Positions 21,568 through 30,435 of a stretch of 48,001 bases of DNA are shown here, one piece after another. The notes below the pieces were generated by a model. That model was not told the origin of the DNA and searched no databases. It saw nothing but the letters and a program-made list of their open reading frames with translations. Each line of letters starts with the position of its first letter. The stretch's first letter is position 1. The position numbers and the translations under genes are program-made. Source of the DNA: Candidatus Pelagibacter sp. (lineage in GTDB: Bacteria; Pseudomonadota; Alphaproteobacteria; Pelagibacterales; Pelagibacteraceae); NCBI GenBank assembly GCA_016777595.1, contig JADHRE010000002.1:1-48001 (forward strand). Reading direction: 5' to 3'.

Positions 21568-21939
21568 ATGGCAGACTTAAATAAAATTATAGATGAACTT
21601 TCTACTTTAACCGTTGTTGAAGCAGCAGAGTTGTCTAAACAACTTGAAGAAAAATGGGGAGTTACAGCAGCAGCCCCAGTTGCAGCAGCACCAGCAGGTG
21701 GCGCGGCAGCACCAGCAGGTGAGGAAAAATCAGAATTTTCAATTTTCTTATCATCCGCAGGTGACAAAAAAATAAATGTAATTAAAGAAGTAAGAGCAAT
21801 AACTGGTTTAGGTTTAAAAGAAGCTAAAGATTTAGTAGAGGCCGCACCAAAAGAAGTTAAGGGTGGTGTAGCTAAAAAAGAAGCTGAAGAATTTAAGAAA
21901 AAACTTGAAGCAGCTGGGGCTAAAGTAGAATTAAAGTAA
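21568..21939 (+). CDS. rplL: 50S ribosomal protein L7/L12
   Basis: Ala/Pro hinge and [46 protein letters not shown]. Confidence 0.98.
21685..21721 (+). repeat. 16-bp perfect direct repeat GCAGCACCAGCAGGTG in the L7/L12 hinge
   Basis: Copies at 21685-21700 and 21706-21721, 21-bp period. Confidence 0.85.
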
Positions 21940-21954
21940 ACAAAATTAAAGACT

Positions 21955-21995
21955 AAGTTTTATTGCAAAGTAAAAATTTGCAATAAGACTTTTTT
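21955..21995 (+). terminator. Hairpin plus T-tract between rplL and rpoB (candidate attenuator)
   Basis: Arms 21955-21969 and 21977-21991 (core TTATTGCAAA/TTTGCAATAA perfect), 7-nt loop GTAAAAA, T run 21990-21995. Confidence 0.75.
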
Positions 21996-22002
21996 ATATT
22001 TA

Positions 22003-25000
22003 ATGCAATTATCTTTTACTCAAAAGAAACATATTAGAAAAAACTTTGGTAAATTAGTCGAAGGTTTATCCATTCCAAATTTAATTGAAGTACAAAAAAA
22101 TTCTTATGATGAGTTTCTTAACTCAAAATCTTTAAATGACCAATTAAGCGATTTATCAAAAGGCATCGAAAAAGTTTTTAAAAGTATTTTTCCAATTGAA
22201 GATGGAAATGATAAATCAACTTTAGAGTATATTTCTTACAAATTAGAAAAACCTAAATTTGATGTTATTGAATGCAAACAAAGAAGCTTGTCTTATTCTG
22301 CAGCTTTAAAAGCTAATTTAAGATTGGTTGTTTATGACATAGATGTAGAAAAAAATACGAAACAAATTTTATCTGCAAAAGAACAGGAGGTTTTTATTGG
22401 AGATCTTCCATTAATGACTCCAAGCGCCACCTTCATAACAAATGGCGTTGAAAGAGTAGTAGTAAACCAAATGCACAGAAGTCCTGGAGTCTTTTTTGAT
22501 CACGATAAGGGCAAAACACATGCTAGCGGTAAACTTTTATTTAATTGTAGAATTATACCTGGTAGAGGTTCTTGGTTAGATTTTGAATTTGATCCTAAAG
22601 ATATTTTATATTTTAGGATTGATAGAAAGAAAAAACTTCCAATAACTACTTTTTTATTTGCGTTAGGTTTTTCTAAAGATAAGATTATAGAAACTTTTTA
22701 TTCAACAAATATATATTCTTATAAAAAGGAAACTAAAAGTTGGATAACAGAATTTAATTTAGATAATTATAAAAGACCCTTAAAGTTATCTTACGACCTA
22801 ATTGATGCTAAAAATAATAAAAAGGTTTTAGGTAAAGGTGAAAAGCTAAATATTGTAATAGCTAAAAAGCTAAAGGAAAAAGGTTTAACCTCTATTTCAA
22901 TTCCAAATGATCAGATTGTTGGTAGATATATTGGTCGTGATATTAAAGATAAAAATGGGGATTTATTAGTAGGAGCTGGTTTCGATATTACAGAGGATCA
23001 ACTAGAGAAAATTATTGCTCAAGATTATAAGGAGCTTAATATTGTCAATATAGACCCAATTAACAAAGGTCCATATATTTTAGAAAGCTTAAAAATAGAT
23101 AAAAATATAAACAAAACTGAAGCACTAAATGATATTTATAAAGTTTTAAGACCTGGAGAAGCCCCTTCGCCTGAGGTAGCAGAAGATGTTTTCAACAATT
23201 TATATTTTAAGAAAGAAAGGTATGATTTATCTGAAGTTGGAAGAGTTAAACTAAATTCAAAATTAGATTTGAACACTAGCCACAAGAAAACCATCTTAGA
23301 AACCGAAGATATAGTAGCGATAATTAGATTCATGCTTAATCTAAGAGATGGTAAAGGTGATGTAGATGACATTGATCATTTGGGCAATCGAAGAGTAAGA
23401 TCAGTTGGAGAGCTTGTAGAAAATCAATTTCGAATAGGTCTTTTACGGATGGAACGAACAGTAAAAGAAAAAATGTCAACTTTTTTAGAAATTGAGTCTG
23501 CTATGCCTCAAGATTTAATAAATGCTAAACCAATCACAACATCATTAAAAGATTTTTTTGCTACATCACAACTTTCACAATTTATGGATCAAACGAATCC
23601 TTTGTCTGAGATTACGCATAAAAGACGAGTTTCCGCTTTAGGTCCAGGTGGATTGACTAGAGAAAGAGCAGGTTTTGAGGTCAGGGATGTCCACCCAACA
23701 CACTATGGAAGAATATGTCCGATTGAAACTCCGGAAGGCCCAAACATAGGCTTAATTAATAGTTTAGCTACTTATTGTAGAGTAAATAAATTTGGTTATA
23801 TTGAAAGTCCATATAAAAAAATTGTTAATGGCAAAGTAACCTCAGAAATTAAATATTTATCTGCAATAGAAGAAGAAAAATATACTATAGCTCAAGCAAA
23901 TTCTTCTTTAAATAATGACGGTTCATTTTCTGAAGAGCTTGTAGCCTGTAGAAAAAATCTTAATTTTGAATTATCCTCAAGAGATAACATTGATTACATT
24001 GATGTTTCTCCTAAGCAACTAGTATCTGTTGCAGCAGCTTTAATTCCATTTTTAGAAAATGATGATGCTAATAGAGCATTAATGGGTTCTAATATGATGA
24101 GACAAGCTGTTCCATTATTAAAACCAGAGGCACCTTTAGTGGGTACCGGTATAGAGTCAGATGTTGCGTTAGACTCTGGTGTAACTATCGTTGCCAAAAG
24201 AAGTGGCGTAGTGGATAAAATTGATGGAAAAAGAATTGTTGTAAAGGCAACTGATGTTACAGATTTATCTCAGTCTACAGTTGATATTTATAACCTCTCA
24301 AAATTTCAAAGATCTAATCAAAATACATGTATTAATCAAAAACCTTTAGTTAAAGTTAGCGACAAAATTAAAAAAGGAGACATTATCGCTGACGGTCCAG
24401 CAACTAAACTAGGAGAATTAGCCTTAGGAAAAAATGTAACTGTTGCCTTCATGCCTTGGCAAGGATACAACTTTGAAGACTCAATATTAATTTCAGAAAG
24501 ATGTGTAACAGACGATGTATTCACATCTGTTCATATTGAAGAATACGAATCAATGGCAAGGGATACCAAACTTGGCGCTGAGGAAATTACAAGAGACATA
24601 CCTAATGTAAGTGAGGAAAGTTTGAGAAACCTCGATGAGTCTGGAATAGTTTATGTAGGAGCTGAAGTAAAACCGGGCGATATATTGGTAGGTAAAGTAA
24701 CTCCAAAAAGTGAAACGTCATCAAGTCCTGAAGAAAAATTACTAAGATCAATATTTGGTGAAAAAGCTACCGATGTAAGAGACTCTTCTCTAAAACTACC
24801 TTCAGGTAGCTCAGGTGTAGTCATCGATGTAAGAGTGTTTAATAGACATGGGATAGAAAAAGACGAAAGATCTATTGCAATTGAAAGAGCGGAGATTGAA
24901 GTAGTCCAAGAAGACAAGAAAGTTGAAGAAGAAATACTTAATAGAAATATTAAGCTAAGAGCTATAGATTTGCTTAATGGAGAGCCTATCAACAAACAAT

Positions 25001-26094
25001 TTAAAGATTTAAAACCAGGCACAACCCTTAATCAAAATGATCTCGAAAATATAAATTTAAAACAGCTTTGGAAAATACCTTTACAAAAACAAGATTTAAA
25101 TACTGATTTAGAAAAATTGAAAAATCAATTTGATAATGCTTCTGAGGATATTCGTTTGAGATTTGAAGATAAGGTTACAAAAATTCAACAAGGGGATGAT
25201 TTATTACCTACCGTAATGAAGGTGGTAAAAGTGTTTGTAGCGATGAAGAGAAGATTAATGCCCGGGGATAAGATGGCTGGTAGGCATGGAAACAAAGGTG
25301 TTGTAAGTAAAATTGTGCCAATTGAAGATATGCCATATATGGAAAATGGTAAACCTGTCGATATAGTGCTTAATCCATTAGGTGTTCCAAGTCGTATGAA
25401 CGTTGGTCAAATTTTAGAAACTCATTTAGGTTGGTCGTGTTCCGAGTTAGGTGATCAAATAAAAGAACATTTAAAAAATTTTGATAAAGAGATTGATAAA
25501 ATTAAAGAAAAGTTAAAAGAAATTTACGGAAAAACATACTATGATAATGTTATTTCAAAACTATCTAATAAAGAAGTTGCAGAATTAGTACAAAATTTAT
25601 CTAACGGAGTACCTATCGCGACTCCTGTTTTTGATGGTGCTAGCACGGAAGATATTACAAAAATGTTAGATTTAGCTAAACTACCCAATTCTGGTCAAAC
25701 AAATTTATGGAATGGACAAACTGGAGAAAGATTTGATAGACCGGTAACTGTTGGAATAATTTATATGCTTAAACTTAATCATTTAGTAGAAGATAAAATT
25801 CATGCAAGATCAACTGGTCCTTACAGTTTAGTCACACAACAACCGCTTGGCGGTAAAGCACAGCTTGGTGGACAAAGATTTGGAGAGATGGAAGTTTGGG
25901 CTTTAGAAGCTTATGGTGCATCTTATACTCTTCAAGAAATATTGACGGTAAAATCTGATGATGTAGCTGGAAGAACTAAAGTTTATGAAACTATAGTTAA
26001 AGGAAATAATAATTTTGAGTCTGGAGTACCCGAATCATTTAATGTTTTGGTTAAAGAAATAAGAGCACTTGGATTAAACATAGAATTAAATTAA
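22003..26094 (+). CDS. rpoB: RNA polymerase subunit beta
   Basis: [39 protein letters not shown]; 1363 aa. Confidence 0.99.
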
Positions 26095-30284: not shown

Positions 30285-30346
30285 TTATCAATCAAATCCC
30301 CTTAAATATTGACTTTTATCAATTCAATGCTAATTTACGGCAAATT

Positions 30347-30376
30347 TTGAATGTTAGATGTAAGGCAGATTATAAC
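30347..30376 (+). promoter_or_regulatory. Candidate internal promoter before rpsL (TTGAAT N18 TATAAC)
   Basis: TTGAAT 30347-30352 and TATAAC 30371-30376 in the 151-bp rpoC-rpsL gap, the largest gap inside the array. Confidence 0.4.
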
Positions 30377-30435
30377 CTTAAACACTAACAAAAAATCTTC
30401 AAAGGTTTTCCTTATCTCAACTTCAAAATATTATT

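Follow-up and report, generated by a model that had tools for sequence, protein, structure and literature searches.

The rplL-rpoB junction of a SAR11 genome

The stretch of DNA analysed here (the window, 48,001 nt) belongs to a SAR11 (Pelagibacteraceae) genome of 481,694 nt that is 67% complete, and the closest named match of its RplL comes from an uncultured Pelagibacteraceae genome (98% identity). The genes nusG, rplK, rplA, rplJ, rplL, rpoB and rpoC follow each other in this order, with gaps of 0 (nusG-rplK), 4 (rplK-rplA), 4 (rplA-rplJ), 15 (rplJ-rplL), 63 (rplL-rpoB) and 2 nt (rpoB-rpoC), in agreement with the 0-15 bp that a preliminary description, made from the sequence of the window, had given for most junctions of the array. 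The 151-nt gap between rpoC and rpsL is an exception to the short junctions of the array. In that gap, at positions 30335-30432 of the window, the full model of the Rfam family RF01823 (rpsL RNA) could be matched in the expected place, with a sub-threshold score of 19.2 bits (cut-off 37); on this match, the region probably represents the SAR11 rpsL motif in a divergent form.

The gap between rplL and rpoB contains a hairpin, the parts of which are listed in Table 1. Its anatomy is as had been described, with a perfect core of 10 bp (21960-21969/21977-21986) extended to a stem of 15 bp that includes a single U-G wobble (21959/21987), a loop of 7 nt, and a T6 run ending 7 nt before the ATG of rpoB. 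Two T's of this run sit in the stem, which leaves four unpaired U's after the hairpin, and the end of the stem lies 11 nt from the ATG. The spacer between the rplL stop codon and the stem (ACAAAATTTAAGACT-like) shows a strong sequence conservation within the genus, the reason for which is not evident.

Table 1. Features of the rplL-rpoB junction (positions in the window)
Feature	Position	Strand	Remarks
rplL (ribosomal protein L7/L12), upstream gene	21568..21939	+	Stop codon 21937-21939; open reading frame and translation; RplL match 98%
Spacer from rplL stop to stem, 15 nt, ACAAAATTAAAGACT	21940..21954	+	Genus alignment; sequence well conserved
Stem, 5' arm, AAGTTTTATTGCAAA	21955..21969	+	15-bp stem; fold and covariation
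Loop, GTAAAAA, 7 nt	21970..21976	+	Sequence and length vary among relatives
Stem, 3' arm, TTTGCAATAAGACTT	21977..21991	+	15-bp stem; fold and covariation
T6 run	21990..21995	+	Its first two T's form part of the stem; unconserved outside part of the genus
AU-rich linker from stem to rpoB ATG, 11 nt	21992..22002	+	No Shine-Dalgarno-like motif; putative endonuclease entry site
rpoB (RNA polymerase beta), downstream gene	22003..26094	+	Open reading frame and translation; rpoC 2 nt further on

The hairpin stands out from chance. The fold of a 91-nt region had a z-score of -3.7, and none of 200 shuffled sequences folded as well. With -15.4 kcal/mol it is also the most stable of the 1154 local hairpins of at least 8 bp found on both strands of the 48-kb window, where the runners-up are located, judged by position, inside genes.

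Conservation and covariation of the stem

The rplL-rpoB gaps of related bacteria were cut from loci found by RplL searches in the genus, the family and the order, and a hairpin was regarded as significant when it was better than 95% of dinucleotide shuffles. A significant hairpin was detected in 120 of 136 distinct gaps from the whole order, 11 to 23 nt past the rplL stop codon. Among the 16 gaps without one, some (L045, L050 and L079) show stems that are evident by eye and escaped the scan on account of their long loops or bulges. In genus g2 of the family, on the other hand, a comparable hairpin is absent from the gap (8 distinct gaps) and rpoB still comes after rplL, indicating that the hairpin is not indispensable. 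The g2 loci without hairpin are L081, L084, L085, L086, L088, L089, L092, L110 and L120; in some members of this genus only a pair of 5-6 bp arms (e.g. GGTAC...GTACC) is present about 4 nt past the rplL stop codon, and a search for a comparable hairpin elsewhere in g2 gave nothing convincing.

An alignment of 48 gaps from the window's genus rendered 94.8% of the cells of the 15-bp stem as paired, with 9 of the 15 pairs changed on both sides, and 61 both-side-changed cells as compared to 19.2 in shuffles, a signal of covariation that is abolished when the arms are slid. Parsimony on a tree built from the flanking coding DNA counted 30 compensatory changes of both partners, 68 single changes with pairing retained and 27 breaks, 15 of these 27 falling in the two pairs at the loop end. 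Covariation was also found, independently, in 25 gaps from other genera, which have a different stem sequence. The compensatory changes that the preliminary description had proposed to look for in an alignment of these gaps are clearly present, with the stem both conserved and covarying in relatives. Many orthologues have a short stem of 6-10 bp that is also weak (about -5 to -9 kcal/mol), and neither the loop nor the stem sequences are conserved between genera.

The stem cells also indicate at which level the pairing is kept. G-U occurs in 77 of them and A-C in 8, and since a G-U on this strand is an A-C on the other, such an asymmetry points to selection on RNA transcribed in the rplL-to-rpoB direction. 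Although the DNA forms a near-perfect inverted repeat, as a transcription factor site or a bidirectional element might, we consider a role at the DNA level extremely unlikely, because pairing is retained despite sequence change and only one of the strands tolerates G-U; a DNA palindrome was rejected on this asymmetry. As judged from these alignments, what SAR11 keeps in the rplL-rpoB mRNA hairpin is the pairing, and not its sequence or its U-run.

Placement of the hairpin relative to rplL and rpoB

In the 120 significant hairpins, with kinship ignored, the spacing from the rplL stop codon to the stem has a mean of 16.2 nt and a standard deviation of 2.6 (14-22 nt in the genus), while that from the stem to the rpoB ATG has a mean of 9.6 and a standard deviation of 3.8 nt, with a range of 1-22 nt. 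The first distance being the tighter one, the hairpin seems to be tied to the end of rplL. Taking into account the footprint of a ribosome stopped at a stop codon, these spacings suggest that the hairpin is part of the rplL end and would lie just outside a ribosome halted there.

Hairpins past rplL are not exclusive to SAR11. In a sample at the level of the class, a significant hairpin was found in the first 130 nt past rplL in 33 of 46 alphaproteobacterial loci, one of which (L150) repeats a SAR11 genome. In a second sample, which may overlap the first one, the hairpin was significant in 39 of 51 non-SAR11 loci and in 27 of 28 SAR11 loci, with a single T-run of at least 5 in each of the two groups. 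The hairpin after rplL of other Alphaproteobacteria is nearly always devoid of a U-run, and it is usually located far from rpoB. Two loci lacking a recognisable rpoB after rplL (L155 and L276) differ from most loci at which rpoB follows, in that the hairpin just past rplL is terminator-like and has a long tail rich in T; the missing rpoB may reflect contig ends or divergence.

Alternative explanations

The preliminary description had taken the hairpin as a deliberate attenuator, i.e. a partial intrinsic terminator at which hairpin and U-run would free a fraction of the polymerases before rpoB. The part of this claim that stands is that the hairpin is under selection and sits at the boundary occupied in E. 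coli by the attenuator/RNase III site, whereas the terminator part is not supported, the U-run being unconserved and the stem AU-rich. A stable hairpin is indeed present and U's follow it in the window, but only four of these are unpaired. T-runs of 5 or more near the end of the stem accompany 44 of the 72 significant hairpins of the window's genus and none of the 48 found outside it (in other Pelagibacterales genera and family f2), so that the run is missing, with the stem retained, in all 48 of the latter and in 28 of the 72. A generic terminator scan did match the rplL-rpoB hairpin, with 15 pairs, but it returned 9 sites in the window against 8.4 expected from shuffles, no excess, and is therefore unusable as evidence. 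The control at the genome scale consisted of 360 kb from G020, a near relative, taken as stretches (loci L199-L216). Of its 54 co-directional gaps of 30-300 nt, 7 contain a hairpin with an energy of -10 kcal/mol or lower. The six strongest of its gap hairpins have six G-C pairs each, four of the six run into T-rich tails, and in those that are terminator-like the G-C pairs mostly adjoin the T-run, as in AAGACCCCTCAAAATCATTTTGAGGGGTCTT followed by T6; they are of use as a reference for terminators in SAR11. Going by their composition, G-C-rich, T-tailed hairpins of this type represent the terminators of this clade. In the rplL-rpoB stems G-C pairs number 2 at the median and 4 at most, placed in the middle of the stem and not beside a U-tract, which as compared to the six of G020 makes the rplL-rpoB element a different kind of hairpin, and no hairpin like it was found among the co-directional gaps in the 360 kb of G020. 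In E. coli K-12, the corresponding gap of 319 nt holds a G-C-rich hairpin with T5, 36 nt past the rplL stop codon, and attenuation there has been published (Barry et al. 1980, as cited in PMC2777011). In spite of this precedent, partial termination at the SAR11 hairpin is, on sequence grounds, rather unlikely, and it comes into question mainly for those hairpins that bear a T-run. Together with the translational role considered next, it is the main rival of the explanation that we prefer.

A similarly small probability is given to a translational role, in which the hairpin before the rpoB AUG would act as a brake or insulator, lowering the initiation of rpoB or uncoupling it from that of the heavily translated rplL. 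In most of the family the hairpin ends about 1-13 nt before this AUG, within the region that is covered by the 30S subunit. Shine-Dalgarno motifs are little used by the genes here (about 13% against a background of 8%), so that accessibility of the start site should matter, and a dual role has been suggested for structures of this kind (PMC5927463). However, spacing from the stem to the AUG varies more than that from the stop codon, the reverse of what an element acting on the start site would predict, and the distance to rpoB in other Alphaproteobacteria also argues against it. A single-sequence fold also contains an outer helix between the spacer and the rpoB AUG, which shows no covariation and was rejected, and so was sequestration of a Shine-Dalgarno motif, which is present in only 9 of 147 gaps, in some of them inside the stem, and belongs to a type of motif rarely used here. 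A promoter of rpoB in the tail (TATATTT) was set aside, this sequence being found in only part of the genus. It could also be the case that the hairpin is a processing site for RNase III, a smaller counterpart of the E. coli one, but we deem it quite improbable, since many orthologues have only 6-10 bp, short of the length that RNase III is generally thought to need. The analogy draws on the 15 bp of the window's stem, on the presence of RNase III in all 15 genomes tested and on the E. coli intergenic region as a reported substrate of this enzyme (PMC2777011). Less probable still would be a site for a protein, such as L10-L12, L1 or RNA polymerase, exerting a feedback control of rpoBC. A conserved RNA element in an operon of ribosomal proteins and RNA polymerase invites this idea, and ribosomal-protein operators on mRNA are common, but protein operators usually keep sequence-specific contacts, and neither the loop nor the stem is conserved in sequence between genera.

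A predicted 3' boundary of the ribosomal-protein message

The explanation that we prefer, to which we give about half of our confidence, is that the hairpin is an intercistronic element for 3' protection or processing that makes the rplKAJL mRNA more stable than that of rpoBC, which would yield the two products in the proper ratio. It would mark the point at which the ribosomal-protein portion of a nusG-rplKAJL-rpoBC mRNA ends on its 3' side. Transcription would pass through the whole operon, an RNase E-like endonuclease would cut downstream of the hairpin, in the AU-rich linker or in rpoB, and the hairpin would then stop 3'-to-5' exonucleases, so that the rplKAJL segment would outlast rpoBC and the mRNA for L12 would be in excess over that for beta and beta'. 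L12 is present in multiple copies per ribosome and is needed in excess over RNA polymerase.

Several features that such a protective hairpin would call for are found here: a stable, conserved hairpin 3' of the upstream gene within an operon, with no need of a U-tract, and the genes for an enzyme of the RNase E type and a 3'-5' exonuclease (all 15 genomes tested, that of the window included, encode RNase E/G, RNase III and PNPase). Order-wide conservation of structure without that of sequence, and a rather constant placement relative to the rplL stop codon, speak for protection. Against it, many of the orthologous stems may be too short and weak to block exonucleases well, g2 has rplL followed by rpoB without the hairpin, and in most of the family the hairpin is so close to the rpoB AUG that a translational role would fit too.

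These roles could be combined. In the streamlined gap, a single SAR11-wide hairpin might do several jobs, capping the 3' end of the ribosomal-protein mRNA after cleavage, hindering rpoB initiation on the uncut mRNA and leaving, after the cut, a near-leaderless rpoBC mRNA, a proposal that we put forward as speculative and unlikely to hold in full. If true, one hairpin would stand in for what larger genomes divide among an attenuator, an RNase III site and a Shine-Dalgarno leader. How unequal amounts of L12 and RNA polymerase are obtained from one operon is a classic question, solved mainly in E. coli. SAR11 has shed most of its spacer DNA, yet nearly all the lineages sampled retain the hairpin. 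A hairpin without U-tract is also usual after rplL in other Alphaproteobacteria. Taken together, these observations suggest that the class generally relies on post-transcriptional control to this end.

Comparison with known systems

No Rfam family scored above its gathering threshold for the rplL-rpoB hairpin (best score 22.6 bits, cut-off 70). Meyer et al. 2009 (PMC2704228) searched the gaps of 'Cand. Pelagibacter ubique' and reported motifs upstream of rpsB, rpsL and ffh, among others, and in a search of the text of that paper rplL and rpoB were not mentioned. A description of the element was not found in the open-access literature, most subscription papers lying outside the scope of the search, and the hairpin is provisionally regarded as a SAR11-wide RNA element new to the literature. 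Similar in setting is the rpsL motif (PMC2704228; RF01823), also a SAR11 RNA element of the same gene cluster, in the next large gap downstream; that motif sits before rpsL, whereas the hairpin sits before rpoB. The attenuator and RNase III site of E. coli share with it the operon boundary and the presumed purpose, an output of rpoBC lower than that of rplJL. However, the E. coli gap of 319 nt comprises a G-C-rich hairpin, a T5 tail and further structure, and the SAR11 gap of 63 nt a single AU-rich hairpin whose T-tail is not conserved.

For the predicted role, the comparison is with hairpins involved in differential mRNA stability. In E. coli operons that decay differentially, Dar and Sorek (2018, PMC5927463) report a stable hairpin lacking a uridine tract at the 3' end of the upstream gene, the longer-lived one, and RNase E has been reported to cleave A/U-rich sites beside stem-loops (PMC2777011). 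As in SAR11, malE-malF and the Dar and Sorek set (PMC5927463) have a hairpin that is conserved and stable and directly follows the upstream, more abundant gene, with no need of a U-tract; in that set protection was established by experiment and the hairpins often lie in the downstream ORF, while in SAR11 protection is predicted and the stems are AU-rich. The intercistronic hairpin of the puf operon of Rhodobacter capsulatus, linked to segmental mRNA stability (Klug et al. 1987, as cited in PMC6238624), is likewise alphaproteobacterial, in a different operon, and the likeness is drawn independently of sequence. In Clostridium cellulolyticum, 3' stem-loops mostly without U-runs set the stoichiometry of operons through selective RNA processing and stabilisation (PMC4423207); they belong to another phylum and to other genes, and it is only there that processing sites have been mapped, but their 3' position and general lack of U-runs are those of the SAR11 hairpin.
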